The notes below the pieces were generated by a model. It searched no databases. It saw only the letters and a program-made list of their open reading frames with translations, and was not told the origin of the DNA. From NCBI GenBank assembly GCA_963971425.1, contig OZ020515.1, positions 22,254,637 to 22,318,636 on the forward strand: 64,000 nucleotides of DNA, read 5' to 3'. Made by a program: the position numbers and the translations under genes. The stretch is from Bryoerythrophyllum caledonicum (lineage: Eukaryota > Streptophyta > Bryopsida > Pottiales > Pottiaceae). Below, piece by piece: positions 11,832 to 62,263 of the stretch; positions within the stretch are counted from its first letter, which is position 1; each line of letters begins with the position of its first letter.

Positions 11832-11945
11832 AACCCTAAACCCTAAACCCTAAACTGTGAACCGTGAACCATGAACCCTAAAACCCTAAACCCTAATCCT
11901 AACCCTAATCCTAGAACCCTAAATCCTAAATCCGAAACCCTAAAC
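11832..11945. repeat. Interstitial plant-type telomere-like repeat
   Basis: A perfect run of three CCCTAAA-type units (11832-11855) is followed by a degenerate run (11874-11945) with CCCTAAA, CCCTAAT and CCTAAC variants. Decayed derivatives such as GTGAACC lie before and between them. The unit is the Arabidopsis-type telomere repeat. Here it is internal and degenerate, so it is either an ancient chromosome-end or repair scar or a seeded microsatellite. Confidence 0.8.
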
Positions 11946-14989: not shown

Positions 14990-16260
14990 TAAGGAAGGAA
15001 TTCTTTGGGAATGTTGCTATTCAGCCATCTGGAAGCACCTTTGCAAAATGTAGTACTTGTGATGAGTTCAATCAATTCTTACTGACGACTCCAAGGAGAA
15101 CGCCCGCATACGAGCTATTCTATAGCAATAGGCAGGCTCACTTTAATCACCAACAATCATGCAGGAAGCTTTACACGACATGGAAAGAGGAGTCGAAGGC
15201 GAAGCCGCTGACCTTTCTTTGTGTCATTCACGACAAGATGGACACTGCAAAGACGGCCCTTCCACGCATGTGGAGGACCACTTAGGCGACATCTGATCTC
15301 GGATAGCTTCCCATGAATGTGACTAGAATGGTGGCACACGGTCATGTCGACGGAGCGTATGCTCACTATGCTCCTGCTTTATGGCCTGGAGATTCGAACG
15401 CCACCATCTCCTCCATGACAAAACTTTTTAGGCCGCTTGAGGGAGCACCTCTACATGAGACGCGCGCGCTCTTCGAGCACCTGCCTCCAAACTCGATGTT
15501 CACGGCGCTCATGAGGGGAAAGAGCAGGTGCGTCGACGCTTTAGAGCCCATGGAGCCCAGTGCTTTTAAGGGACCGAAACTGTTGCCACCGAAATTGTTT
15601 CTACATCTCGACAACTCAGCAAAGGACAACAAGAACCAATACTTGATGGCATTCTTATCACTGCTAACAACTCGATGTGTTTTCAAAGAGATTCAGGTTG
15701 GCTTCTTGGTGGTCGGACATACGCATGAAGATATTGATGCTTACTTTAGTCATCTATCGAAAGAACTGAAGAAAAGTTGTACATATATTCTAGCGGATTT
15801 GATGAAGGCATTCATGAAGTCATAGAAACTAGCCTTCATGCCGGAAGTTATCCAAGAAGTGGCCGAATTCAAATCGTACGTCGATGGCTATCTATGCAGC
15901 GGGGCGGCACGTCTGGTGAGACTAAGTGATACGCATCTCTTCTAGTTCTACGTTGACAATGATGGTGTTCCGGTCATGAAGTTCAAGAAATCTGCCGTTG
16001 ACGCAGAGTGGTTACCCACAAATAGAGAGCCGATAAAACTCTGGAAGATAGATGACAGTGGACGTCCCATGCTTCCAACACGCTCTCCCAAACCCGTCCC
16101 TTTCAAGCCCATATGGGGTAATGAGAAGCAAAACCCGGTCGGAAACCAAGATGTTGCCAGAGACAAGACCAAAAAAGCGACAGAGAACAAAAATTTCATA
16201 AAGACGGGGCTTCGGAAGTACGTGGACAACTCGGCGTCCGGAATGTCAAAGTGCCCTGGG
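14990..16260 (+). pseudogene. Gene B, DUF7869 transposase-like core
   Basis: One frame spans the region with several in-frame TAG codons and no obvious frameshift. Recognisable text in order: a Cys pair (KCSTCDEFNQFLL), CVIHDKMDTAKTALPR, MVAHGHVDGAYAHYAPALWPGDSN, LHLDNSAKDNKNQYL and GFLVVGHTHEDIDAYFSHLS. The Asp of LDNS and the His/Asp positions of GHTHEDID form the RNase-H-like acidic core seen in DUF7869 proteins, which are repetitive, transposon-like genes in algae, bryophytes and animals. The following part (FYVDNDGVPVMKFKKSAVDAEW...) leads to a donor near 16259. The rest of the protein resumes at 24311, after a GTCC microsatellite and a nested transposon. Strongest match in the left half of the window, although 'transposase' is inferred from the family. 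Confidence 0.7.
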
Positions 16261-16267
16261 GTTGTTC

Positions 16268-16325
16268 GGCCGTCCGTCCGTCCGGTAGTGTCCGTCCGTC
16301 CGTCCGGTTGTCCGTCCAGTAGAGG
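16268..16325. repeat. (GTCC)n microsatellite, left of nested element
   Basis: Tandem GTCC units with a few interruptions. A matching patch lies at 24255-24292. Both are on the same strand, so they look like one microsatellite in a gene B intron split by the insertion between them. Confidence 0.75.
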
Positions 16326-16429
16326 CTGTTGTCTGTCCGATAAGGGTCAACCCTGGTTTGAACATGACTCAAGGTAAATCAATTTATCCACTGCCACCAA
16401 GGCGACTACGTGGCTGACACGTCGTCAAC

Positions 16430-16482
16430 AGGGTCGCGCGCGTACAAACAGGGGGGGCGGAAGCGTGAAGGGGTCGGGCGCA
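16430..16482 (-). repeat. Left subterminal GC-rich array (inverted), running into the gap
   Basis: GGTCGCGCGCGTAC and GGGGTCGGGCGCA are reverse complements of the TGCGCCCGACCC-type units in the arrays at 20035 and 23838. The array is cut off by 200 N, so its length is unknown. The gap probably exists because the array is repetitive. Confidence 0.6.
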
Positions 16483-16682
16483 NNNNNNNNNNNNNNNNNN
16501 NNNNNNNNNNNNNNNNNNNNNNNNNNNNNNNNNNNNNNNNNNNNNNNNNNNNNNNNNNNNNNNNNNNNNNNNNNNNNNNNNNNNNNNNNNNNNNNNNNNN
16601 NNNNNNNNNNNNNNNNNNNNNNNNNNNNNNNNNNNNNNNNNNNNNNNNNNNNNNNNNNNNNNNNNNNNNNNNNNNNNNNNNN
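16483..16682. other. Assembly gap of 200 N
   Basis: Exactly 200 undetermined bases, a conventional gap size, so the true length is unknown. By comparison with the second copy it should hide the rest of an array and the promoter of accessory gene copy 1. Confidence 0.95.
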
Positions 16683-16826
16683 GCGCTTTGGCCTGCAACT
16701 GCCATGTGGCGGCTGCTTGCTAAGCACTATTGGGAAGTGGGTCCCAAGATCTATTGACATCCCTTTCCATCCCGGTGTCTATTGACATCCTTTTACTCCC
16801 GGTGCCCCTTCACGCTTGTTTCAAGC

Positions 16827-17778
16827 ATGGACTCAAGTGGGCCTTCTGAGATTCGGGCTTCCGAGAAGAAAATGAAGAAAGGACAGCGTGATGCGGGACA
16901 AGACGCAACCACAAGCAGAAGAAACGCATTCACATAATCATCGATGGTGAGTTGAAGGCATTTCGAGGCTGGGAGATGTACCAAATCCGTGGACATTTAC
17001 ACAGTGTGCAAAGTACATTGCCTGGTGTCATTTGGGACGAATGTGGCCGCATTCGCGGTATTTGCAACTTCGGAAATACGACAAGGGTAATTTAAATTAC
17101 TGCACCAATGAAGTATTCAGAGAACGGTGCATCCAAGCGTACCAGCATATCTACAACACGGCAAAGGTTCACCGGAACGAGGTGAATCTATCCATTTAAC
17201 ATATGGTGTATCCTGAGATTATACTCGGAGTAGTAGTCGATTGGAGGACGATGGAAATACAACCAAACTCCAAGATGACACCAATATCCACGGCGTCACT
17301 ACCAATAGAGCGCAAGTTTCAGGGCGAAGCTCTAGGAAAAAAGGCGAAGGAAGTTGAAGTTCCAAACGAGGAAGTCGTGTGGTCTGACACTTCCAGTGAC
17401 CACTCGGACACTAGATGCGACCCATCTAGTCGCAAGGAGATTGAGGGCTTTATTAAATGCCATTGGCTAGATTCTGCCCTCCAAGAAACACCGACAATTG
17501 GAGAAGATTCCGGCAAGGAAGAAGATCAAACTGAGATGGACGCGGTTGCATATGAGAACATCAATGAAAACCTAGAGTCTTCTGATGATGTTCCAACTGG
17601 ACGAGAGGCTCATCTTCAGCTTCTTGCTAAATATGAGCAGAGTTTACAGGAAAACAAGAATCTGGTAGAAGAAGCCAACCGCAACAAAGAAGAACTTCAA
17701 AAATTACGCACTATACTCCAAGAAAAGGACATTCAAATCCAGGAATACGCGAAGTTGGTGTTTACTTTAAAGTCGTAG
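16827..17778 (+). pseudogene. Accessory gene of the composite transposon, copy 1 (broken)
   Basis: Copy 1 starts with ATGGACTC at 16827, in a Kozak-like context, and aligns throughout with copy 2 at 18884. The shared 5' leader begins GCGCTTTGGCCTGCAACTGCC in both. The first part is basic, followed by a Trp-rich block that is conserved between the copies at DNA level (WTFAQCAKYI.WCHLG in copy 2). The last 191 codons (17203-17778) are open. They begin with PEIILGVVVDWRTME, continue with an acidic Ser/Asp-rich linker and end in a Gln/Glu/Lys heptad-like coiled coil (ENKNLVEEANRNKEELQKLRTILQEKD). No known family is recognised. A basic, possibly DNA-binding head and a dimerising tail would suit an accessory factor of the transposase. 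The 5' half is damaged in about two places. Confidence 0.5.
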
Positions 17779-18639
17779 AATTTGATAGCAATGGAAGTAG
17801 TGCCATGAATGATAAACGGGCAATTTTGTAACATTTTGAAATCATAGACCTTGTGAATTTTGTAAATTGCACTTCATTTGTAAATGGCTTTAGTTCAAAA
17901 CAATATTGTTTATCTCTGACGTTAATCAAGTTTGTATGGTTCAGCATGTTTTATAATTTGGCTAGATGTAATAAAGTGAATGTTCTATACAGTCTTGTAT
18001 AGGTTTAAATTATATATTTGATGAATGTGTTATGATCTTCCATGATTGTACAACTTCATGCACCCTAGTCAATAAATTAAATTCACTTTTGTCTAATATT
18101 TGATAACCGACTACAATAATCTACAGTATCATCGAGAATTTTTTTGTAGTGGAATTTATATCATGTGTTGAAGAATAAAACTTAAATTTTTGTCTCAAAC
18201 ATGTCAATCATAAGACTAAACAATAAAAACCATGTTACTTTCTTGCATAATAAATGATTTGGGATGAAACAAAATCCCCAATATTAATGCAACATTATTA
18301 TTCTTGGTTGAATTATATGTAACTAATTGCAACGGCCTTCCAAATGATAAGAGATGGCATTCTACCATACAAATTATCCATATTATATCTTAATATGAGT
18401 ATAAGTTTGCGGAACAAATCATTGAGCATGCTAATTGAAGGTACTAACTCTCCCCAAAAAATCATTAAGTAAGCATAAGTATTGTGTGCCTAAGTAAGTA
18501 TCAGTATTGTATAAGTAAGTATAAGTATTAAGTATTGTATGTGAAAGTATAAGTATTGTATAAGTAAGTATAAATTCAAGGCACTAGGTTATAAGTAGGT
18601 AGAAGTATTGTATGTCAAGTTCAAGGCACAAGTTCATGG
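17779..18639. other. AT-rich spacer inside the composite transposon
   Basis: No gene. The right part has short tandem AAGTATAAGTATTG-like repeats (about 18470-18620), which end directly before the GC-rich array that precedes accessory gene copy 2. Confidence 0.6.
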
Positions 18640-18730
18640 CACACCCCTCTCGCGTACGAGCGCAGCCCTCCAGCGTACGCGCGCCTCTTGGTCGTATGCG
18701 CCCGCCATAGGTCACTAATTTATTATAAAT
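18640..18730 (+). promoter_or_regulatory. GC-rich array plus TATA box of accessory gene copy 2
   Basis: Three to four degenerate units of the GCGTACGCGCGCC / TATGCGCCCGCC type (about 18645-18708) are followed after about 15 bases by TATAAAT (18724-18730). The ATG lies about 155 bases further on at 18884. The same order (array, TATA, leader, ATG) is seen before the transposase gene. Confidence 0.55.
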
Positions 18731-18883
18731 ATGAGATTTCAAAGTTACGGACCCCACTTCCTAGGCGCTTTGGCCTGCAACTGCCATGTGGCGGTTGCTT
18801 GCTTGGCACTTTTGGGAAGTTTTTTACGGTGTCTATTGACACCTTTGTATTTTGCCACCTTCGTATTCCTCCACCTCGTCACC

Positions 18884-19812
18884 ATGGATTCTGGACAACC
18901 ATCTACCACTAGCAGTCCCCACGGAAAGCGACAACGTGATTTACGTCAGGCACGCTCAAAGCAGAAGAAGTGCCTTCACGTGTTGATGGATGAGAAGTTG
19001 AAGGCATTTGCTGGTTGGGAGTCAGTTCCAACTCCATGGACATTTGCACAATGTGCAAAATACATTGGATGGTGTCATTTGGGGCACCTCTGGCCATACT
19101 CACGGTATTCTCTAATGCGACGTACAAACATGGCCAACTTGGGGTACTGCACCAATGAGTTCTTCAAGGAGCGTTGTATCCAAGCGTACCAGCACATTTA
19201 CGACGAGGCAAAATTGAGCCGCAATTCGGTAAATATTTCAATTTTAAGGATGGTTTACGCGGAGGTGGTACTTGGCGTACCGGTTCATTGGAGGACAATG
19301 GAAATCCAAACACACTCCAAGATGGCGCCAGTCATTGGATTAACAATACCGTTTGTGCGGAAGTTCCAGGAGAAGGTCTCGGGAAAACCATGGAAGTTGA
19401 ACCTTCGAATCAAACAATCGAGTGGTCTGCGTCTTCATCATCCGACTCGGATACTGGATGTCATCAGTCTGTGTGTAGGCAGCAAGAATTGTCCATCATA
19501 TCAGCGTCGAACCCTAAACCGTCGGTTTCACAACAAGTCGGAGATGCCACGAACTTGACAGATGCGGTACTTGAGGAGGGCGTGGATAATAAAAAAAAGT
19601 CTACGGAGGGTGACTGGGTGAGTCGTGACGATTATCTTCGAGTAAAGAAGCGACTATATGAAAGCTTGAACGTAATTGAGGATCTAGGAGAAGAGCTCGA
19701 TGAGAAGTATAATGAAATTGTAAAATGTCTTGAAGAAATTCAAGACTTGAAGGCACGAGTTCAGGAGAAAGACAATCTTCTTTCATTTTTTACTGGCTTT
19801 AAGGGATTCTAG
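18884..19812 (+). pseudogene. Accessory gene of the composite transposon, copy 2
   Basis: The ATG at 18884 has a strong context (ACCATGG). Text in order: a short Ser-rich head, a basic patch (GKRQRDLRQARSKQKK), a Trp/His-rich globular block (TPWTFAQCAKYIGWCHLGHLWPYS and GYCTNEFFKERCIQAYQHIYDE), AEVVLGVPVHWRTMEIQ, an acidic Ser/Asp linker, and a coiled-coil tail (YESLNVIEDLGEELDEKYNEIVKCLEEIQDLKARVQEKD). The copy is open apart from one change of frame around 19390, so it is nearly whole, about 300 residues. No family is recognised. Its conservation with copy 1 and its position before the transposase argue that it is part of the element. The AEVV-x-GV-x-V-[HD]-W text also appears in the unrelated-looking gene at 52041. 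Confidence 0.5.
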
Positions 19813-20034
19813 AACTACAACAGTACGAGAAATGCACATAGAGCAATGTTGAATTGTTTTGGAACAAGAGCTTTCTACAATTTTGTAACTGCCATTTAAT
19901 ATTGAGGGATATTTTGTATATTGAATAAAACCTTGTAAATTCAGTGGCATCATGTATATTTAGTGGATTTTTTATGAGATGTTTTACATATCAAAATGTT
20001 AAGTGTTGCAATGTTTCAATAGACCGTCAAATTA

Positions 20035-20199
20035 GTGCGCACGCCCCAACATTGTGCGTGCCCGGCCCCACTGCGTGCGCATTCGGCCCACAGCGTGCGC
20101 GCCCGGCCAACAGCGTGTGCGCCCGGCCACATAGAGAATGCGTCCGGCCACCCAGGTGCGCGCCCGACCCCAGATGCTCTTGCTCCAGCACTATATAAG
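20035..20199 (+). promoter_or_regulatory. GC-rich array and TATA box of the hAT transposase gene
   Basis: Six to seven units of roughly 22 bases (GTGCGCGCCCGGCCC type) end at about 20180 and are followed by TATATAAG (20192-20199). The transposase ATG is at 20389. The units match those of the terminal array at 23838-24130, so transposase binding could also regulate this promoter. That is inferred. Confidence 0.6.
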
Positions 20200-20388
20200 A
20201 ACTATATGCGATGTGCTTGACTCACCTCACATCCTTGGCTTCGTGTCCTGGAACTCCTTATTGGGCTTCTTGCATGAATCTACAAGTTTGTGAGTGACCT
20301 TTGGGTCAACATTTTCTATGCACACACAATTTCCTATTACTTTTGGCGGATTCTCTTTGGCACAACATTGCGCGCCAATTTTATTGTG

Positions 20389-23300
20389 ATGTCGTCTCAA
20401 GAAAGGGCTCAAACGAAGGAGTGGGCTCCATGGTACACATTTAACAAGAAGGATCAAGTGACATGTGTTTGGTGCAATTACACGTTCGCATACAAACGTG
20501 GGAGGTGCATGTCACACTATGGGTATCCACAATGGACGAAGACTTTGTGCACTAAGGCCCCAACAGTTGTTAAGGCCCGTTTTAAAAGATGCGGGAATAT
20601 TATTCCTACTAGGATGACCGAGGCGGAGATCGTTGGCCTTCCTAGCGCACCAACAACATGTTCCACTGAACCTTGTTCTAGCCAATCCATCTAAGAAGGT
20701 AGTTTCTTGGAAACTCAAAATGAGGAGAACACGCAGTCCACAAATCCTCTAAGCCAAGCAGCATCATCAACACCAAGATCTATACGACAACGGAGCTTTT
20801 CAGAGGCTTACCAAATAGAAAAACAAAAAGAGTTGGACAAATTATGGGCACATTTTTTTTATGAAGCCAACATTGCATTCAACGTGGTTAGACATTCGGC
20901 CTTCATCAAGGCCACCCTTGCAACGTCAAAGGCGGGTTTTGATTATACACCGCCATCGTACAATGCCATGAGGACGACATACATTGAGCCTCTAAAAAAA
21001 AAGTGAAAGACCTTGTGGACAAGAAGACCGGCGTAGATATTGCCAAGTATGGGGCAACAATATGCTCGGACGGGTGGGACAATGTTACACGTCGCCCTCT
21101 CATGAATATCATGCTCGTATGTCCAATGGGTGATATCTTCTTGGGGTCTATAGACACCACGGGTATGAAGAAATCTACGGCATATATAGGGGACCAATTG
21201 AAAAGTTTTATCCGTAAGGTTGGACCATTGAATGTGGTCCAAGTGTGCACCGATAATGCTTCAAACATGTTGGAGGCAATGAAGAAGGTCAACGATGAGT
21301 ACCCGCACATATATACTCAAGGATGTTGTGCACATATTTTGGACCTCCTCCTCGAGGACTGGGGGAAGGAAGGCATGTTTGCAGACCTCGTCGAGAAGGC
21401 AAAACAGATCGCATTGTATATCCGGAACCACCATGTGCCCATGGCCCTTTTTCGTCGATTTTTGCCAAAATTGTTTTTGTTGTGGCCAGCAGCAAGAAGG
21501 TTTGCATGCAATTACATAATGATCCATCGTCTGTTGGAAGTGAAGAATGCCCTAGAGATGGTTGTGATAGACCCAACATGGATATCCTACATATCCTCTC
21601 TTTTCGATAGGCAAAACGGGCACCGTGCCCATGCGAAGGCATCGCAAGTACGAGCCACCGTTCTAGACAAGACTTTCTGGCATCGCTGCACTAACTTTGA
21701 ATTTGTAGTGGCACCAGTACTAAAGGCATTGCGGACTTTTGATGGTGACACTCCGGCAATGGGAATTGCTTGGCTGACCATGAACAAGTTAAACGAGCAC
21801 GTGTTCAAGCTGCGCAATGCGCCATTCAACATGCTTGACGGAATTGCAACTCGCCTTGAAGGATCATTCCTACGGCGTTGGGAGATGATGACAACAGATC
21901 TCCATTATGCAGGGGCTTTATTGAATCTTTATCTAGCCAATAACTTGCAAATTCAAAACAATGGTGAGGCCAAAAGGGCCCTAAACAAGGTTGTTATGAC
22001 GCTCTGTGGTCCACTTGGAGTGTCTTTTTCGGTAGTAATGCTCGAAATCACGGAGTATGAAGAATTGTGAGGCCCATATTCACCGGAGGAAGCTGGGGAA
22101 ATTGAAAACATCAACCTCTTGCCTCACCAATGGTGGAACCGCGTGGGCGGGCAATCATTGCCTATCATTGCAAAGCGTATACTAGCACAAACGTGCTCGG
22201 CCTCGTCATGTGAGCGTAATTGGAGCATGTATTCGTTCATGCATAGTAAGAGCCGAAATTGCTTGGGAGTGCAGAAAGCGGAAGATTTGGTTTACATCTA
22301 TAGGAATAGTCGATTGCTCCGAGAACGTGCTCGACCAGACCCGATTCGATGGTATGAGGAGAATGTGCATTTGGAGGAGTCTGATCCAGATGGGGGACTT
22401 CCTTCAAACACAGAGGACGAGGGCTTGGAGTCGGATGATGAGGGTTACAACTGGATGGGCGGCAATTAAGAAGACCTTGCCGGTGACAACAACCCCGTGT
22501 CTGATCATAGCCCACCTAGGGGCAACTCTGCAAACAATGAGCACGGTGGAGATGTACTACATGACCATTTTCACAACGTCCACGGTGACCCAGTGGATCC
22601 TTTTCTATTTGATGAAGTCGACGCAGCGGCAGTCCATACTGTAGTAGAATTATTGGGTGAAGACCGTGCCCAAGAAGCTAGGGCAGGCGAAGATGGGTCG
22701 GCATTAAGGGCAATCTTGATGGAGATGACAACATCTCGGAGAATCAGTCTCCCAACTCAAACGGTTCTAGCGCCTTGGGCCCTTCTAGTGGCGATGGCCC
22801 TGAACTCGACGGTCATGGCATTGGCATTGCAGCAAACGATACATTTCCTCACGATGGAAACGAAGTGAGCAGTGCTGGAAACAATAATGAATCCCATGAG
22901 CCAATGGCCACCACGGGGTCCATTGAAGTTGTGAGAAGCAATGCGGTTTTGCCTCAAGCAATAGAACCGGACTCAGAGGAAGACATGCCACTCCAAGATT
23001 TGTTTTGGCAGCCATGTGCTCAAAGTACCGCATCGATCGGAAGAACTCTTTTACGCGTAAAGAAAAAGACCTCTTCAACAATAGTTTGGCCACCCGTCCA
23101 CCGTAGCGCACTCGGCCCAAATGGTGGTGTGGAGCGTGCGATACTAACCCCACAACTTCCTTCCGCGAGGATTGGGTCCTCTACTATGAGCAGTCATTTA
23201 GGGACACGGAGGGGCGAGAACAATGGTACTCTCCCTTTCTTCACGGGACCTTGGCAAAGTGGAACCTCGGAGAGAGTCATTGGAGCCAAAGGCAACCGCT

Positions 23301-23614
23301 CCAAAAACATGGATGGAGTAACAGACAAAAGGAAGAATATCCGAGTAAAACGACTTGTGAACGCTGCATCAACTACTGGAGCCGAGCTACAACGACGAAA
23401 CTTGGCCTCGGAGATTGAGGAGTACATGGCACCAGTCTTGGAAAATGCAGCGGAGAACTTCTCATCATCGGGCGATGATGCAGACAATGAGGATTGCGAT
23501 GAGGTACCTAGCGACAATACGGTGGTGCTTCGCGGGTTTTCTCTTCCCCAAAATGTTCGCCGATCAAAATGGAAGCGGAAACACAATGAAGAATCCTCAA
23601 GCTTAGATGATTAA
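20389..23614 (+). pseudogene. hAT-superfamily transposase with BED finger and acidic C-terminal extension
   Basis: hAT transposases cut and paste DNA using an RNase-H-like fold. Seen here: an N-terminal BED-type zinc finger (TCVWCNYTFAYKRG...MSHYG...C) and a DUF659-like catalytic start (CSDGWDNVTRRPLMNIML). A second Asp block follows (VQVCTDNASNMLEAMK), then the C-terminal dimerisation block with the catalytic Glu region (TCSASSCERNWSMYSFMHSKSRN), acidic text (ESDPDGGLPSNTEDEGLESDDE), and a long Ser/Asp/Asn-rich extension up to 23614 that hAT proteins normally lack. The frame is interrupted by in-frame stops TAA (20692), TGA (22068) and TAA (22467). There is a shift at a 9-A tract near 20993 and another change of frame around 22750. 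This copy is therefore inactive, although all core motifs survive. Confidence 0.8.
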
Positions 23615-23837
23615 AAGATGACGGACACGAGGGTACTACAAGTTAAAAGTGACTTTAGTGGTGTGGTGATAGCATGGTACAATAGTACCGCGGTTTTAAA
23701 ATATGTACTTGGTGTTGAGAGTGCCCATTCATGAAAGCACCACATTGAAATAAATAATTTTAATGTTAGAGCACCCTGGTACAATTGTATTATTTCAAAT
23801 TCTCTAAACCTCAGCCCTTTTGAGGGGCAGACGTAGT

Positions 23838-24130
23838 GTTCGATCGCGCGCGCCCGATAGCCAGGTGCGCGCGCAACCCACAATAATGCGCGCCAGGCCC
23901 TTGACGTTGCGCGCCCGGCCCCTAACGGTAGGCGTCCGACCTTGACGGTACGCCCCCGGCCCTGAAATGCACGCGCGAGGCCCTTAGGGGTACGCGCCCG
24001 GCCTTGTATGCACGCGCCCGATCCTAAATCGTACGCGCCCGGCCCTACATGAACGCGTCCGGTCTAGATTGGTACGTGCCCGACCCCAAATGTTGCACGC
24101 GTGGTTCGAAGGCACGCGCCCGCCCCTTGA
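23838..24130 (+). repeat. Right subterminal GC-rich array of the composite transposon
   Basis: About twelve degenerate 20-24-base units of the type TACGCGCCCGGCCCTNNAT. Successive units differ at several positions, so it is an old array. It lies between the transposase gene end (23614) and the right edge of the element (24243). It is in the same orientation as the internal arrays and opposite to the left outer array. Subterminal arrays of this kind are the usual transposase binding sites in large hAT elements. Confidence 0.75.
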
Positions 24131-24254
24131 TGTGGCGTGGAAAGCCGTCTGACGTGTCGTGCACACGTGTTTTATTAGGGGGTAAGTTAAAAATTTGATT
24201 TAGGGTTTGTAATTTTTTTTACACGCAACTATCCGCCAAAAAGTGTTGTCTGTC

Positions 24255-24292
24255 TTGTCCGTCCGTCCTACTGACCGTCCGTCCGCTGTCTT
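24255..24292. repeat. (GTCC)n microsatellite, right of nested element
   Basis: GTCCGTCCGTCC and related units immediately follow the right copy of the 11-base direct repeat. The microsatellite on the left side (16268-16325) is in the same orientation. Confidence 0.7.
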
Positions 24293-24310
24293 TGGGCCCA
24301 TGTCTGTCTA

Positions 24311-24952
24311 TGTAGACAACCTTGAAGTGCGCAAGGTTCGTAGACTCCATCCGCCCATACCTGTAGTACTGGAAGGACGTCATCGACGAGCTTGACAAGC
24401 CACTTCTACAGACCCCCTCCGAGCTCGAAGAGGGATTCTGGCTTGTCCATGATTGGATGAGGCCCTCATGAGGGAGGTGCAAATCCGCTAGGATTGCTTC
24501 CACAACCATTGGATGTCACTCCCGAAGATGAGGTTCTCGAGCCTTACTGCGGACCCGCTAATGAAGCCTCGAAGTCCACATTTAATCCTTGGCGAGACAT
24601 CTATCATGGGTCTTGGGTTCTAGTAAGACCTAGTGATCCAGACATCTATCATGTCTGGCAGGGAAGAGCAGTTTCAGACGTCATCAGGGATGAGGGTAAT
24701 GCCAACTACAGAAAATTCATTGTTAAATATTGGGAGCCTGATAATAAGCAGAAGAATCTGAAGAGGAAGTACCAGGACTGCTGGGAAGCCACATGGGTTC
24801 CCGACCAAGAGAAGCCTGTATGGTGTCATGTGAGTTCTGTGGTGTTTGCGACTTGGTCTAGCAAAGTAAATCAACTAACGAGGTCCATTCCGCGTAAAAT
24901 GAAGGAAGCAGTGCTTGTGAACTTAGAAAAAGCGAATGCTGCTAATCCCTGA
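24311..24952 (+). pseudogene. Gene B, 3' exon: C-terminal domain of the DUF7869-type protein
   Basis: After an acceptor-like CTATGTAG, the text YWKDVIDELDKPLL and ELEEGFWLVHDWMRP appears. It is followed, in a shifted frame, by an open stretch to the TGA at 24950-24952 that includes PRTYCGP-like and YHGSWVLVRPSDPDIYHVWQGRAVSDVI. The rest reads FIVKYWEPDNKQK, YQDCWEATWVPD and CHVSSVVFATWSSK. This Trp-rich, small-beta-barrel-looking domain (BAH- or chromo-barrel-like) is what normally closes DUF7869 proteins in algae and bryophytes, as far as I recall the family. It therefore belongs to the gene interrupted at 16260. Stop codon TGA. One frame change is visible near 24470. Confidence 0.6.
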
Positions 24953-44700: not shown

Positions 44701-46070
44701 GAAGTGTGGACATTGCCGTTGGATGGCGATGGTGTTGATTTTTGTGAATGTCTTTTTAATTGAATTAATGGGGATATTGGATGTTTTTTTGAGGCTTTTC
44801 ATAGAGGGGATAAATGTAGCAGCTCTAGCTCTAACATCAATGACAATAAAGGGGTCAACTTTCCATCCAAGAGCTGCAATATCATTAATAAGTGGTTGGT
44901 ATTTATTGATTTTGTTTTCAATTGCTTATGGAGAGAATCTATCATTACAATATTTGAATTCAATAAATTGGATAGTAAGGTTTATACTGACGTGGTCTGG
45001 TGGGGGTCTTTGTATGGTAGTCCTTTGACGCATAATATGTCTGGTATAAATCTAGCATCACAATGACATCTTTAGGTTCGACATGTGCTTTGAAGTAGCC
45101 ATAAAGGGACAATGTTTTCTTGAGGGTTGTTGTTGAAGGTTTTGGCATTCATAAGAACAAAACACCTCAATTTGTTTAAGGAAACAATTAGTTGTTGAAT
45201 TTTCCATACGGCTTTATTGTGTCGTTTAACAATCAATTAATGTATGTGATGGTATTGGCATTTGAGGAGTACATGTAGCCATGTGTTAGGGTCCGCAAAA
45301 GTGCATATGGGGCATGTTGTAGACATGGTTGTCATAACGGACAAAACAGAGTTGTCATAACGGATAAAATAGGGTTGTCATAACGAACGAAACAGGGTCA
45401 TCCGGCGAGCGAATCGGACTAAACGGGCGGATGGACTGGACGATTTTGTTTTTTTTATAAATAGTACTTTGTTGAAGGGTAAAATAGTTGGTTGTAAATG
45501 ACACGTCAGTATGCAACGTGTCATTCTTTGGTGGACTGAAGTCCACTGTGCACGCCTCCAACAAGGCGGAGGCCATAGCGTCGGGGCGCAGATATCCTCG
45601 CCCAGGGCGTGGTCGTTCTTGTTAGGGCGCGGACGTCCCCACCTCTCCAAATTCCTTGTCACCAATCTTTGGATGGCCATAACTTACTCATAAATGATCC
45701 AAATATATAATAGAGGTATTTTTTGGCATCTTAAAAAATGTAGATGTCAAAAATCACCTCATATGCTTGATTTGGACTATTTTTGAATGAATTATGGCCA
45801 TTTCAAAGTTTTGAATGAATAAGGGAAGACTTGGATGTTCGCGCCCTAACGTCCCAGCAAACACGTCCCCGTCTTAAAGGTAGTCCCTCACTTCATGCTT
45901 GCAAAACTTGGCTTTGACCTAGCCAAAGCCATTCCTCTATCCCAAGGATTGGAGGAGCCATTAATAGCAACTAGCTATTATTCCTACGTCTGAGAAGATC
46001 TTGACATTCCCCATTCACGACAACGATCTTGTCTTTGCCAATATGTGGGAAGGAACTCTATATTTGAGGT
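41760..46070. other. AT-rich gene-free region with short tandem repeats
   Basis: About 4.3 kb in which I see no gene. It contains an AGTAACC-type 7-8-base tandem repeat (44504-44576) and three 23-base units of GGTTGTCATAACGGACAAAA type (about 45328-45395). Short reading frames (for example 44723-45028) are low-complexity. Confidence 0.55.
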
Positions 46071-46410
46071 ATGACTTTCCCCACTCAACTAGATTTAATT
46101 ATTTGGTTGTCTTCCACTACCACTTTCCCCTTCTTTCTACTTCATTACCTTCAATATTTAAGTAAATGTCTTTCATTCCCATCCTTTACTCCCATCCCCC
46201 CTATTAGATTTTATTATTTTGTTGTGTTTCACTACCACTTCCACCTTCTTTCTACCTTCATACTATGCTTATTTAATTAATTGTCTTTCATTCTCATTCC
46301 TTACACCCTCCAATTCCCACTAGATTTAAATAATTACTTTATTGGCTCCATCTAACACTTTTCCTTTCCTTCTACCTCCATACTATGCTAATTTGATTAA
46401 ATGTTTTTCA
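46071..46410. repeat. Tandem repeat, three copies of ~116 bases
   Basis: Copies begin near 46091, 46206 and 46322 with AGATTT(A/T)A-TTATT and share CTACCACTT...CCTTCTTTCTAC and GTCTTTCATTC text. Pyrimidine-rich, non-coding. Confidence 0.7.
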
Positions 46411-46734
46411 TTCTTGGTGGGTAGTGCCACAAGTAAGGTTGATGCAACCCAAAAGAGTGAAGCAACCTCAACAAGTTGTCAAAATTGGCTCCCACTTGTT
46501 TTGAACAGTGAAGAGTCACTCACCTGAGTCCCTTGTTGCACTTGAATTTCCTGTCTTTTGTGATCTTCTGCTAACCCTTCCTGCAATAGCTCTGAAAGAT
46601 CAATATTGTTGTATTGGTCCAAGTCAGGTCACCATAACATACACTAACAAGTCCATTGCATACCTGTAGAGCCGCCCTGCAGAGAAACACTCGTCTAAAG
46701 GAAGTGAAGTCAACCACCACACGACCATCAACAA

Positions 46735-50475: not shown

Positions 50476-50827
50476 GGGGCGTTTCACACTAAGCCCAAGG
50501 GCCGAACTCCATTGAAGACCAAACTATGCCGAGGGGCCGAGTTTTGGAGTTGTAAAAAATTATTAAAATTATTTTAATGAGAAAATGTTCGGCCCCTCGG
50601 CAAGAGTTTGGGTTTCTATTCTTGTTGGACCCAAACTCTCCTCGAGGGGCCGAACTATTGGCGCCAAAATTCTCAAAAAGTGTTGCCATGTAAGCATTTT
50701 GGTGCCCTTCGGCCCTTGGCCCTTGGCCCCTAGTGTGAAGGCCCACGGGCCGATTTTCAACTCTAGGCCAATCAAATTGCTAGATTTGCTCGGCCCCTCG
50801 AGCTCGGCCCCTAGTGTGAAACCCCCC
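50476..50827. mobile_element. PIF/Harbinger-like MITE
   Basis: A 352-base element is flanked by TTA (50473-50475 and 50828-50830), the target duplication typical of PIF/Harbinger. The terminal inverted repeats GGGGCGTTTCACACTA and (complement of the right end) GGGGGGTTTCACACTA match at 15 of 16 bases. Inside is a strong hairpin: arm 50587-50613 and arm 50629-50655 match at 25 of 27 bases around a 15-base loop. Copies of GGCCCCTCG / CGAGGGGCC recur through the element. There is no coding capacity, so it would depend on a transposase elsewhere. The ends are intact and the repeats little diverged, so it is fairly young. Confidence 0.85.
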
Positions 50828-51760: not shown

Positions 51761-52040
51761 GGGTTGCCATAATCGGCTTTAGGAATTTAAGTTCAGTGTA
51801 TAAAATATGTACTCCACATTAGTTTAGTTCATATGCGTGCATTCTTGGAAAACTATGCTACCTTTTCTGGAATTTACAATTGAGCACTGTAATACACCCT
51901 GGTATACCATATGAGACATTGTATATTACTCACTGTAGTATAGTATAGTCACTACAGTATATTTTAGTTTAAAGTTAAACTATCACGTCCTTTGCATGTC
52001 TGGTAGGTGCTGTTGGACGTGAGTATTGGCTTCATCCGGT

Positions 52041-53562
52041 ATGAGGAGGCAAGACAGAAGGGGACACGGTCGGCTGAAGAAGAAGGAGGTGGCCATCCGA
52101 AGGATTGACAACATCGATGAACGAGATGAGTCTGACACGAAGGAGGAGGCCAGAGAAGAAGAGGACGATAAGGTGGAGAATATCGACGACAGTAGCGATG
52201 AGAAGGGGTCTAAATTGGAGGACATTGAGTTGAAGATGGGGATGATGCTCAGAGGCGCGCCGCCTTGTGCTGTTTCATATGAGCAATTCCGAGACCAGTA
52301 CAAGCTACACGCAGGTGGGTTGAATCCGCACAAGCACGGGGAGAAGCATGATGTCACGGAAAATGACCTCATGGTGATTTTTGGACCGAGGCGATTAGGT
52401 AAGTCCGGTTATTCATTCAGGAAGGTCGTGGATACGGCAATAACAAATGCAATAAACCGCTACTATTGCATTTGTTATCAGAAGCTGCAGGTACCTCACT
52501 CAAAACTTGTAGGGAAGGACTTTGCGGTTGCAGTTGTTGCAGAGGTGGTCAAGGGGGTTGAAGTGGACTGGGCGGGTTTTGCTACTATCACGAACACAAA
52601 CCAGAGGTCTGCCTCGCGCAAGAAGATGTTAGGATTGGTGAAGGAAAAATCGCGCATTACTGGTAAGTCTCTTCTTGAAATTGTGCAAGAAGAGGGATTG
52701 GCGTGCTTTTTTGAGGGAGGGAATTCGGTGAAGCAAGAGGGTGCCGAAGCTTCTACAGGAATGTTGGACAGCAACGCCTCTCAAAGCTCTTTGTGGACGG
52801 AGAAGAAGAGGACAGAGGTGCAGGAGCTTCTTCCGCTGGTGGGGTTGGAGACTGACGCAACAAAGAAGGAGCTTGAGGTGGCAAGAAACGATCTCCACCA
52901 TCTAAACCAGCAAATCATGAGTCAAGGTTAAACAGTTGAGACCATGGAGGCAACTGTGACCGCTGCAAGAAAGCGTATGGATGAATGCAAGAACGATGGG
53001 CACTTGCATCACCTGCGGCTGCACAATGATTTTTATGGTGACATGTTCAGAGAAGCAGGCGACAAGCTTGGGATCCTCAGGGCTCATTACGAATGCAAAG
53101 TTGCATTGATTGCTAGACTGGAGTGGAGAGAAGACATCTTGGAGAAGCAAGCCAAGGACTTGTTGAAGCTCGTAGGGACTTTGAAGGCTCGACAGAGCGA
53201 TCTATCCGTTTCTCCACACCCCATGGTGTACCTCGAGGAAGCAGAGGGTAAGGGATGGAACACATTGAAATGGAGGACATGCACGGTATGTAATCTTCCA
53301 TTTCCTTACAATGACATCCATATATGTAGTTGTGAGCATGTGTATCACCCGTGGTGTGCGAGGCTGTGGTTTCAATCAAATTCAAAGTGTGCGTCGAAGA
53401 ATTGCAGGTTGGTCCATCCAGAGTGGTACAAGTCTAATGGATACGGGGAGTTGCTGGGTGACCTTCAAGTGGAGGCTGAAACTTTGGATTGTAACTTTTC
53501 TCGGGTAATGGCAATTTCGGCACGTACACTATCGGCCAAGAAGAACTGCACTACAATTGGTA
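52041..53562 (+). pseudogene. RING-H2-like zinc-finger protein of unknown family
   Basis: From the ATG at 52041 one frame runs to a splice donor at 53562 (ATTG|GTAAGTG), interrupted by a single TAA at 52929. The protein has a basic head (MRRQDRRGHGRLKKK), a long acidic region (about residues 25-65), and a globular block (NDLMVIFGPRRLGKSGYSF). The AEVVKGVEVDWAGF text and a coiled-coil middle come next. Near the end is a Cys/His cluster, CTVCNLPF...CSCEHVYHPWC...KCASKNC. Its spacing C-x2-C-x11-C-x2-H-x2-H-x2-C matches RING-H2, except that the final pair is C-x4-C. RING-H2 proteins are usually E3 ubiquitin ligases, but that is not shown here. The TAA could mark a relic, or a missed intron. A further exon downstream was not found. 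Confidence 0.5.
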
Positions 53563-53599
53563 AGTGTTTCATTCATGGTACACTTGTGGTATGCTCTTT

Positions 53600-54800
53600 A
53601 TAAGTATGCTATCAATGTCGAGAACATGTTCAATGCTATCATACAGTGTGTCTTGTATGTTTAGTACTACCTCAATTGTGATTGTGCCTGTGCCTACTCA
53701 TGTATAACTATTGAGTTTGTGTATTCTGTTGTTCTTTATCCTCTGATATGCTTTCTAGTACGGGCTTAGGGTATATAGAATACCTCAAAATACTATTTGC
53801 TACTATAGACGTGTAAAAAATATGCATGGAACGGTGTATGCCTAAGTGGAGTGTCTCTGGGTGGAGTGTATGCATGGATTTTGATTTTACCTGGGTGGTG
53901 TATACAGTTGTTAGAAGGGACCAAGCTATTTTGCATGCCCAACTTCGCGAGCTGCGAGCCGCGAGCCTACGGTTGCGAGCCTTGGGGCAAATACATTGTT
54001 CTAAATTTGAAAAAGGCCAAAAAAAAGTGAAAGTTTAATGGGATTCTTTTTGTGGAAATGGTGGATAGCTAAAAATCAGGGGACCTATTACCGTGGAGGA
54101 GGGTGTAGAAATTGAACGGAAGAGGTTGTAAAATTGACAATTTGGATGATATTATTCTAAGAATGAACCTATGACCGTGGATTTTTTGCTCTACGAATAA
54201 AGAGGAGACAAGATTACTAAGGACATGAAGCTCTAAAGTGGGGCTCAGTATAGATTAAATTGTTGTGTAAGAGTGGAGGACAAGGAAGTTGTAGTTGAGG
54301 TTTAGGATGCGATTTAGGGTTTAGAAATTCAGAGTACCGGTACTGATATTTAGGGTTTAGGATAGAGTAATTAGAGCTAGAGATTACAGGGTAGGTTTTG
54401 GCGATAGTTATGGATAACGATAGAATTGGGGTTGGAATAGGCCCCCACGTCTCATGGGATACCAATAGGAAATGGTTCAATTAGGAGATAAACATTTTAA
54501 CATCGTTAAGGGTGATAGCAAATATTGCGAATTTAAGAGAGTTAGGGGGTTTGAGAAGTTTAGGGCAATTGCGAGAGAGGATCAAAAAATAAAATCACTA
54601 GCGGACTTAGGTTTAATGAGAGGTTCAACTAGGTTTAGAGTTTACAGGGAAGATAATCAGACGTTGCGAATCACCTGTATTGACACTATTTTGCAAGAAT
54701 AGAAATGGAGATTGACAAGATGTAGTACAAAGTGTGGAGGTGGCCCTTTTAGTCTCACCGCCTTTTCAATGGAAGGAGAGTCTCAGTACAAGGTTTTGCG
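53600..54800. other. No gene seen
   Basis: Contains two short TTTAGGGTTTAG patches (54313 and 54349), again telomere-like. The frame at 54472-54702 has no domain. The last part is the downstream flank of the MULE gene. Confidence 0.45.
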
Positions 54801-60969: not shown

Positions 60970-62263
60970 CACTACAAGAAAACCAGCCCAATGTGACTAG
61001 GTTTTATGACTACAGTTGGGCATAAACCAAAATGTGACTAGCACTGTTTCTAGTCATTTTGACTTAGTCGCTTCGGACAATCTGACTGGAGGTCATATCG
61101 GACACTTTTTGTTCCCAATACTGCGTTCCCACAGTGTTTTGGGACCTCAAAACGGGACCTGCAGTGGGACTTGGGTCCATATGACTCTATATAGTCATAT
61201 ATGTATGACTACACGTAGTCATCCATATGTAAACAGTGACTGAATGAATGACTATTTCTAGTGAGGTATAAGTCAACATAATACTGGTTTTATCACTATG
61301 CATAGTAGTGAGATGGTGACTAAATTGAGTCATTCATTGAGTTGGGAGAACGTGACTCTTTGAAGTCACATCTATTTGGCAACCTCTAGTCACAAATACT
61401 CAAATAGCTTCCAAATGGTATGACTAAATGTAGTGAGGTATCAGTTAATACATGATTGGTTTTATCACTGCGCATAGTAATGAGATCTTGCACGCATTGA
61501 GTCATACATTGAGTTTGGAGAATAGGACTCTTTGGAGTCACTTCTATTAGACTACCCATAGTCACGAATATTGAAATAGCTTCTGAATGCTATGACGAAT
61601 TGTAGTGAGATTTTTAAAGATTAAAGAAAAAAGGAAAAATCTCCATATAGTACCTGTGCCTGATTGTTGACCCTGATTGATGTGCCTGAAAGATGTTGAA
61701 TCAAGTATTGTAAGCCTCAACTGTAGCAAACTAGCACCCAACAAGCACCCCAACTTCCAAACCTTCTATGTCTGCCATCCCCTCTCCCAAATTGCTTGAA
61801 AGTACACAAAGAAGAAGCATCTCTAAATAAGAGAGAATATGTGACTTGTTCGCAAAGAATATGGGATAAATGTGATTACATGTTTCAAATGTATGCTCTC
61901 ATATATTATTATATGACTACTACTAGTCAGGTTATTTACTACATGACTGTGTGTAGTCACCCAAACCAACTCTCTTACTACAATAAGTCATACATAAACC
62001 AATTACCCTTACCATATGACTACATTACTATGACTACACATAGTAAACACTCAGAGCATGACTCTGGGAACCGGGCAGGAGAACATATGTCCCGTTCCCG
62101 TAGCCGTTCCCACCCAGGTCCTCAAAAATATGACTACATATATGACTAGTGCATGACTGGACCCTATTAGGATTGATTTTAGACTAAACCAATGACTGAG
62201 GTGACTACGCAGTCATATGCGCTTAGTCACATCCAGTCACATTGGGCTGGTTTTCTTGTAGTG
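60970..62263. mobile_element. Non-autonomous CACTA (En/Spm) transposon
   Basis: The element starts CACTACAAGAAAACCAGCCC and ends with its complement. The inverted repeats match over at least 30 bases (through CAATGTGACT). It is flanked by the 3-base duplication TGA (60967-60969 and 62264-62266), as expected for CACTA. The interior is packed with TGACTA / TAGTCA motifs in both orientations, the classic subterminal transposase-binding repeats. At 1.3 kb it has no transposase, so it depends on a helper. The ends look complete and near-identical, suggesting recent movement. Confidence 0.93.

Follow-up and report, generated by a model that had tools for sequence, protein, structure and literature searches.

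The 64,000-nucleotide stretch of the genome of Bryoerythrophyllum caledonicum analysed here (contig OZ020515.1, positions 22,254,637 to 22,318,636; hereafter, the window) contains a hAT-type transposon inserted into an exon of a gene for a DUF7869 protein (gene B). From left to right, the element comprises an inverted array of short repeated units, two copies of an ‘accessory' gene, a transposase gene and a long array at the right end, with further arrays upstream of the second accessory copy and of the transposase gene (Table 1). The relatives used for comparison all come from a single assembly, G001, filed as an uncultured Synechococcales cyanobacterium, and are represented by the contigs L001 (4.9 kb, recovered by an accessory-protein scan of prokaryotic genome contigs), L007 (6.3 kb), L008 and L016.

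Table 1. The transposon, its components and the interrupted gene in the window.
Feature	Position	Strand	Basis or remark
Whole hAT-type (DUF659) element, inserted in exon	16257..24324		8068 bp; L001 right-end homology and empty-site protein alignment
Left target-site duplication AAGTGCCC	16249..16256		7/8 bases identical to 24325-24332; empty-site protein alignment
Right target-site duplication AAGTGCGC	24325..24332		7/8 match to left
Left terminal repeat TGGGGTTGTT	16257..16266	+	6/10 identical to right; the four differences are transitions
Right terminal repeat CAAGGTTGTC (L001: CAGGGTTGTC)	24315..24324	-	comparison with L001
Left (GTCC)n-rich terminal tract	16267..16337		no counterpart in the uninterrupted DUF7869 gene
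Right (GTCC)n-rich tract and terminal region	24244..24314		common to L001 and L008
Assembly gap of 200 N inside the element	16483..16682		between left array and accessory copy 1
Interrupted DUF7869 gene (gene B), left flank	15307..16248	+	Pfam 5.7e-33; L016 homologue
Interrupted DUF7869 gene (gene B), right flank	24333..24949	+	alignment to L016
Left-end array A, units inverted, interrupted by gap	16425..16482	-	array D matrix, 0/1000 shuffles
Accessory copy 1 leader, imperfect dyad	16683..16738	+	52/56 bases identical to copy 2; also in L001
Accessory gene copy 1, pseudogene	16827..17778	+	frame changes in 5' part; in-frame TAA at 17197
Array B, 3 units, upstream of accessory copy 2	18640..18712	+	1/1000 shuffles
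TATA-like box of accessory copy 2	18724..18730	+	14 bases past last unit of array B
Accessory copy 2 leader	18765..18820	+	similarity to copy 1 and L001
Accessory gene copy 2	18884..19812	+	one frameshift near 19400; N-terminal domain and coiled coil
Array C, 7 units at 20-21 bp, upstream of transposase	20031..20182	+	0/1000 shuffles
TATA-like box of transposase gene	20192..20198	+	20 bases past last unit of array C
hAT transposase gene, broken	20389..23614	+	stops 20692, 22068, 22467; frame changes near 21000 and within 22682-22865
Probable long C-terminal transposase extension	22470..23614	+	open frames after dimerisation domain; L007 likewise extended
Array D, right end, 12-13 units, outward-pointing	23840..24132	+	repeats and weight matrix

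The transposase gene encodes a DUF659 domain (E = 9.5e-33) and the hAT dimerisation domain Dimer_Tnp_hAT (E = 1.5e-7; both by Pfam), which bears out the hAT transposase named in a preliminary description of this DNA. The motifs SDGW (21066), CTDNASN (21246) and CERNW (22209) are those that we take to be the hAT catalytic blocks. Downstream of the dimerisation domain lie open frames of 132 and 310 codons that probably encode a long C-terminal extension; the L007 transposase also carries such an extension, which does not align with that in the window.

The accessory copies are diverged versions of one gene, as the preliminary description held, with 70% nucleotide identity over 510 columns and 74 of 115 amino acids identical. 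The ratio of nonsynonymous to synonymous substitution rates (dN/dS) between them, estimated from gap-free blocks only (135 codons), is 0.18 (bootstrap 0.08-0.29; the long block by itself gives 0.14, and the short block, with 21 codons, 0.51), at a dS of about 1.4, which is near saturation. Because the ratio is this low at such a divergence, both lines must have encoded functional proteins long after the split: the accessory paralogues were subject to purifying selection in the past and are now broken. The antiquity of the split, given by the same dS, is incompatible with a recent date for the array-plus-gene duplication that had been proposed, and in place of the ‘composite' transposon of that proposal stands one hAT-type element whose gene copies parted long ago. 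Both copies stop just past the coiled coil, and the RING half present in relatives (see below) was not found in the window element, where the only match is at the level of chance (E = 0.87). The N-terminal domains are predicted to be mostly helical, with low confidence (mean predicted local distance difference test score, pLDDT, of 55 and 50).

The 56-bp leader of the accessory gene is 93% identical between the copies (4 differences), closer than any of the 353 56-nt windows of the coding alignment (minimum 7, median 16 differences). It recurs in L001 between the TATA-like box and the ATG, where no shuffle in 500 matches as well as the copy 1 leader; for the copy 2 leader, the counts are 0/500 within the TATA-ATG stretch and 4/500 over the whole of L001. 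The leader was not found in L007. Although it contains a dyad, the leader of copy 2, as single-stranded DNA, shows a folding advantage over shuffles that is only slight (z = -1.95; 9/200 shuffles as good), and that of copy 1 shows none (z = 0.12). In the leader regions (16745-16795 and 18827-18849), the motif TCTATTGACA(T/C)C is found twice in copy 1 and once, in a near-palindromic form, in copy 2.

The borders at 16257 and 24324 follow from the point at which the homology with L001 ends and from the fit of the joined flanks to an uninterrupted gene. The alignment between the window and the right end of L001 continues past 24243 and across the GTCC tract as far as GACAACC(C/T)TG, where it breaks off at 24324; none of 500 shuffles aligned as well, either for the entire right end or for the part outside the GTCC tract. 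The same right-end region is present in L008 (0/500 shuffles), with degenerate final bases. On L016, a DUF7869 gene forms an uninterrupted open frame of 963 amino acids. When the two flanks of gene B are joined at 16257/24324, they align to the L016 protein as one gene in one frame (E = 9e-16), free of gaps over ~44 columns across the junction; joined at the borders given in the preliminary description (16338-24243), they contain 53 surplus residues compared with L016. The (GTCC)n tracts, accordingly, belong to the element, and the gap-free passage together with the single open frame in L016 argues for insertion into an exon and against the intron assumed previously. Gene B has stops downstream of the junction. 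In a border scan over 23,200 pairs, with a duplication of at least 7/8 and a terminal repeat match of at least 6/10 required, three pairs passed, the other two of which sit inside the GTCC tracts. The direct repeat TGTTGTCTGTC (11 bp; copies at 16327 and 24244; 3/2000 shuffles), which would yield precisely the borders of the preliminary description, was rejected as the pair of borders: the L001 homology runs beyond it, and the interrupted gene puts the border further out.

Elements of the hAT superfamily have short terminal inverted repeats that begin with CA. Compared with this start, the ends read CAAGGTTGTC at the right, CAGGGTTGTC in L001 and TGGGGTTGTT at the left of the window element; since the window contains 9 matches to CAGGGTTGTC with one mismatch, the terminal motif by itself is weak proof. 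The 8-bp target-site duplication is of the hAT type, and one base differs, as may be the case in an old copy. With the CAAGG/TGGGG ends, the 8-bp duplication and the hAT transposase, the element lacks the CACTA ends and the 3-bp duplication of another superfamily. Elements of the MULE/VANDAL type possess a MULE transposase and a duplication of about 9 bp, and here hAT domains only and an 8-bp duplication were found. Taken together, this is one hAT-type transposon in an exon of the DUF7869 gene.

Two structural alternatives bear on this conclusion. The hAT element proper might span only about 20.0-24.3 kb, with 16.3-20.0 kb a separate element or a duplicated module nested with it, as the individual arrays and TATA-like boxes of accessory copy 2 and of the transposase could suggest; this is, however, scarcely credible given that the flanks fit an uninterrupted gene only when both parts are removed, that the left and right arrays are inverted partners, and that transposase and accessory gene adjoin in another element (L007). 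It is also very unlikely that a scaffold misjoin glued two different element copies together: the gap consists of exactly 200 N and separates the left array from accessory copy 1, as a misjoin would have it, but the outer flanks on the two sides are parts of a single gene read in a single frame, and the arrays at the two ends match.

The arrays were compared using a 17-base weight matrix derived from the right-end array D alone (12 units), with the summed score set against 1000 shuffles. This matrix detects array A on the minus strand (0/1000, compared with 85/1000 on the plus strand), array C (0/1000) and array B (1/1000 for the summed score, 11/1000 for the best single site); the opposite strands of the two promoter arrays yield 747 and 247 of 1000 and are not found, and no cluster beyond the four arrays was detected in the window. 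In pairwise local alignments, only C and D are clearly similar (0/500 shuffles); the similarity of A to C and D is weak (11 and 10 of 500), and that of B to C and D is at chance level (80 and 70 of 500), so that the membership of A and B rests on the matrix test. When the arrays are left out, the left and right ends of the element are no more similar than expected by chance (60/500 shuffles); with the arrays, the count is 3/500. The minus-strand location of A indicates that the left-end units run in the opposite orientation to those at the right end. In these respects, as well as in the placement of two arrays just before TATA-like boxes, 14 and 20 bases past the last units, the picture of four related arrays in the preliminary description stands. 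Arrays A and D, inverted with respect to each other, are subterminal repeats of the kind seen in hAT elements.

The units are spaced by 20-21 bp in C, mostly by 20-21 bp in D, by 21 and 19 bp in B and by 23 bp in A; the prevailing distance corresponds to about two helical turns, so that the sites would face one side of the DNA. The arrays retain CpG (observed/expected 1.05-1.38), and in array C, TpG/CpA is raised to 1.72. Among the 18 array units, there are 23 transitions at non-CpG positions compared with 6 at CpG positions (6 of the 13 positions are CpG). Decay of the arrays by CpG methylation is therefore unsupported, the elevated TpG/CpA of array C notwithstanding.

The relatives display the same parts in different arrangements. 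L007 carries the C-terminus of a transposase (Dimer_Tnp_hAT, 1.2e-9) followed by an intact 855-aa accessory gene and a 21-bp array that runs to the contig end; L001 includes, in this order, an array, a TATA-like box (L001:1714), an intact 801-aa accessory gene, an array and the family right end, with no left end on the contig; and in L008, an accessory fragment precedes the family right end. Accessory genes come first in the window and last in L007. The accessory proteins, roughly 28-45% identical in the aligned parts, extend in L001 and L007 past the coiled coil into a further half with a RING finger (PF13639), which in L007 scores above the cut-off (4.4e-9) and in L001 below it, both for the whole protein (0.025) and for the piece (0.0029). 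Among the four accessory loci of the census (window, L001, L007 and L008), two have a hAT transposase on the same DNA (window and L007), three have the family right end (window, L001 and L008) and none lacks both; thus, in this small sample, the accessory gene keeps the company of hAT transposases and ends that the preliminary description expected. A further candidate locus, L013 (E = 0.048), was discarded as chance.

Several G001 contigs, despite their cyanobacterial filing, look eukaryotic (hAT, DUF7869 and RING genes). The TATA-like box, the hAT-type end and a repeat resembling a miniature inverted-repeat transposable element (MITE), 71% identical to one in the window, suggest that L001 is mis-binned eukaryotic DNA, and the G001 contigs that carry the lineage are apparently all of this origin. 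In a search of 386 genomes from the phylum under which G001 is filed, G001 alone gave a match; phages gave none, and among viral contigs, there was no relative of the accessory or transposase proteins, of the DUF7869 piece, of the L001 and L007 proteins or of the leader pattern. Among solved structures, the transposase piece had only chance-level matches (E at least 0.42) and the accessory N-terminal piece had no match.

Promoter and end arrays agree more within an element than between elements. By raw scores, which is all that this cross-comparison provides, the window right-end matrix gives 14.0-24.1 for the four window arrays (A 21.8, B 14.0, C 22.7) and 13.0 for the L001 promoter, 12.8 for the L001 right end, 11.8 for L008 and 9.9 for L007. 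The L001 promoter matrix scores 22.1 on the L001 right end, 16.0 on L008, 6.4 on L007 and at most 8.3 in the window; the L007 matrix scores 17.0 on the L001 promoter and at most 6.9 on the rest. The separation is not entirely clean, in that array B of the window exceeds the L001 arrays by little and the score of the L007 matrix on the L001 promoter is fairly high. The promoter and right-end arrays of L001 have a 17-mer in common, and in both L001 and L007, the spacing is again mostly 20-21 bp. Such within-element agreement, which resembles what has been described for VANC proteins and their motifs (PMC5735166), is expected if the element's own protein reads both places; gene conversion within the element could be an alternative source.

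The latter process, or slippage, figures in a broader alternative, namely, that the arrays are tandem repeats grown by slippage that serve as promoter elements for host factors and play no role in transposition. Compatible with this are the positions of arrays just upstream of the TATA-like boxes at 18724, 20192 and L001:1714 and the CGCG core of the array, which we take to resemble plant CAMTA sites. This alternative appears improbable, however, because the arrays are also subterminal at both ends, inverted at the left, and because promoter and end arrays match within each element, with units that vary from one element to the next. A decayed left-end-like stretch of the same lineage elsewhere in the window (45324-45660) also speaks against it, with one strong inverted L001-type unit (22.0, 0/500 shuffles) and two weak ones (6.4 and 3.6) at a 20-21-bp spacing. 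In this stretch, an end-like motif is repeated in tandem copies of 23 bp (CATGGTTGTC, CAGAGTTGTC and TAGGGTTGTC), followed by GACACGTC and then by the inverted units; by the window right-end matrix, it is near chance (25/500). Beside it lies a 230-bp imperfect palindrome (45621-45850).

The interpretation that we favour, with a slightly better than even chance of being correct, is that of a decayed, once autonomous DUF659-type hAT whose transposase would read both the end arrays and the promoter arrays. The transposase is chosen as the array reader, with about the same modest assurance, by analogy with hAT transposases that use subterminal repeats: BED domains of Hermes bind the subterminal repeats of the left end (PMC10368747), and the activity of Kat1 depends on subterminal repeats (PMC4763223). 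The lineage comprises two kinds of genes, one encoding a transposase that bears a probable long C-terminal extension, the other an accessory protein built of the N-terminal domain and the coiled coil plus, in relatives, the RING finger, with the arrays inverted inside the two ends and in forward orientation before the genes. An N-terminal zinc finger of the transposase would load onto the end arrays, so as to find and pair the ends, and, by also occupying the promoter arrays, would control the expression of the transposase itself and of the accessory protein, such that a single binding site would link protein supply to mobility. Assembly of the accessory protein would take place via its coiled coil, and in the full-length forms, the RING finger could act as an E3-like arm directed at a host or transposase target. 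The identity of the array reader, the autoregulation and the ligase activity of the RING accessory protein are thus inferences. A more general proposal, which is tentative and may well fail, is that there is a plant-lineage hAT group with a second gene for a coiled-coil RING (ubiquitin-ligase-like) protein, in which promoters and ends would share helically phased arrays that evolve as a unit within each element, expression and mobility would be under one self-encoded controller, and the short RING-less forms, such as those of the window, would be built-in inhibitors or adaptors.

A number of observations count against this interpretation. At the borders, the inner right-end sequence of the element between 24133 and 24243 is not similar to L001 beyond chance (26/500 shuffles); the identity of gene B to L016 is low right at the junction, where the spacing between conserved parts carries the argument; and the terminal repeats agree in 6/10 and the target duplication in 7/8 positions. 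The N-terminus of the transposase (20278-20691) has no BED finger detectable by Pfam, and only a Cys-x2-Cys spacing is visible at 20464. The Hermes precedent covers only one end because no BED domain binds the right end (PMC10368747). As for the arrays, B is weak, a forward array before accessory copy 1 would be hidden by the 200-N gap, and the L007 accessory gene has no clear upstream array (best site 9.9, on the minus strand), so that the array before each gene, as originally described, is not general. Finally, all three genes, the transposase and both accessory copies, are broken, so the window element is not active and is dead as it stands, unless some of the breaks are sequencing errors.

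The main rival holds that the accessory protein, and not the transposase, reads the arrays, as a TnpA- or VANC-like second component that aids excision or lifts silencing. There are precedents in which VANC binds tandem same-orientation non-coding motifs of its own VANDAL, with the motif and the protein changing together (PMC5735166), and TNPA of En/Spm recognizes subterminal repeats (PMC2613891); moreover, the array sequences change from one element to another, with accessory proteins that have roughly 28-45% identity in the aligned parts, and the accessory N-terminal region is predicted, with low confidence, to be mostly helical. On the other hand, no known DNA-binding domain was found in that region, a weak L001 match to TMF_DNA_bd (E = 0.021, below the cut-off) falls in the coiled coil, and the arrays, with CpG kept, show no clear methylation decay apart from the TpG/CpA value of array C, while hAT transposases are described as binding their own subterminal repeats (PMC10368747). 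On this evidence, we regard the accessory protein as an unlikely reader, a TnpA- or VANC-like role included.

With hAT elements of the DUF659 type, the window element shares the DUF659 and hAT dimerisation domains, the 8-bp duplication, a CAGGG-like end (in L001) and the subterminal repeats; it differs in the GTCC-rich terminal tracts and the long C-terminal transposase extension, and its lineage differs in having a second family of genes, for coiled-coil proteins that in relatives include a RING, and in the long phased arrays that are also located before genes. Partial parallels are found in several systems. The VANDAL elements of Arabidopsis, of the MULE superfamily, likewise have several genes and tandem same-orientation non-coding motifs that vary between elements (PMC5735166), but they belong to another superfamily with other proteins, and no anti-silencing is apparent in the present lineage. 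En/Spm, a CACTA element, combines a transposase and a second protein (TNPA, TNPD) with subterminal repeats (PMC2613891), whereas the window element has no CACTA ends, another duplication length and different proteins. Hermes and Kat1 transposases use subterminal repeats, the polarity of which differs between the ends in Kat1 (PMC10368747, PMC4763223); the repeats described there are short, with no array before a second gene. In rust fungi, hAT7 elements carry an extra gene (PMC12730594), contrary to the earlier statement that ordinary hAT elements have only a transposase, although that gene encodes a TET/JBP dioxygenase rather than a coiled-coil/RING protein, and the hAT7 duplications are 7 bp long. 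Among the matches listed, no hAT element of a plant or alga that carries a RING gene or another second gene stood out, which is no proof of absence from print.

Subterminal repeats are already known in hAT elements, and in MULEs so are VANC proteins whose motifs change along with them. If real, a hAT lineage in which both features occur together with a RING second gene would represent an independent instance of a comparable solution, and it could be used to test whether the expression of a transposon and its movement are coupled through a single binding site. The element-specific arrays, together with the two intact accessory genes (801 and 855 aa), provide material for this.

Other features of the window include a gene at 52023-53600 (plus strand) that is possibly a distant relative of the accessory gene: its RING-like finger falls below the cut-off (PF13639, 2.3e-4) but matches the profile of the RING half of the accessory protein with a probability of 76% (E = 2.3e-5), its AEVV..VDW-like motif is weak (probability 6% at a profile E of 0.0063), and no hAT domain was found beside it. 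The MITE-like repeat family is represented in the window at about 50477-50826 (outer limits by eye), in L001 at 628-956 and in L008 at 2249-2582; window positions 50645-50784 are 71% identical to L001 812-950, and 93 bases are 72% identical between the window and L008. The window also contains AACCCTA repeats at 11832-11945 and an eIF4A-like helicase gene, both suggestive of a host from the plant lineage, as well as tandem repeats of 115 bp (46088-46413) and 172 bp (61248-61609).

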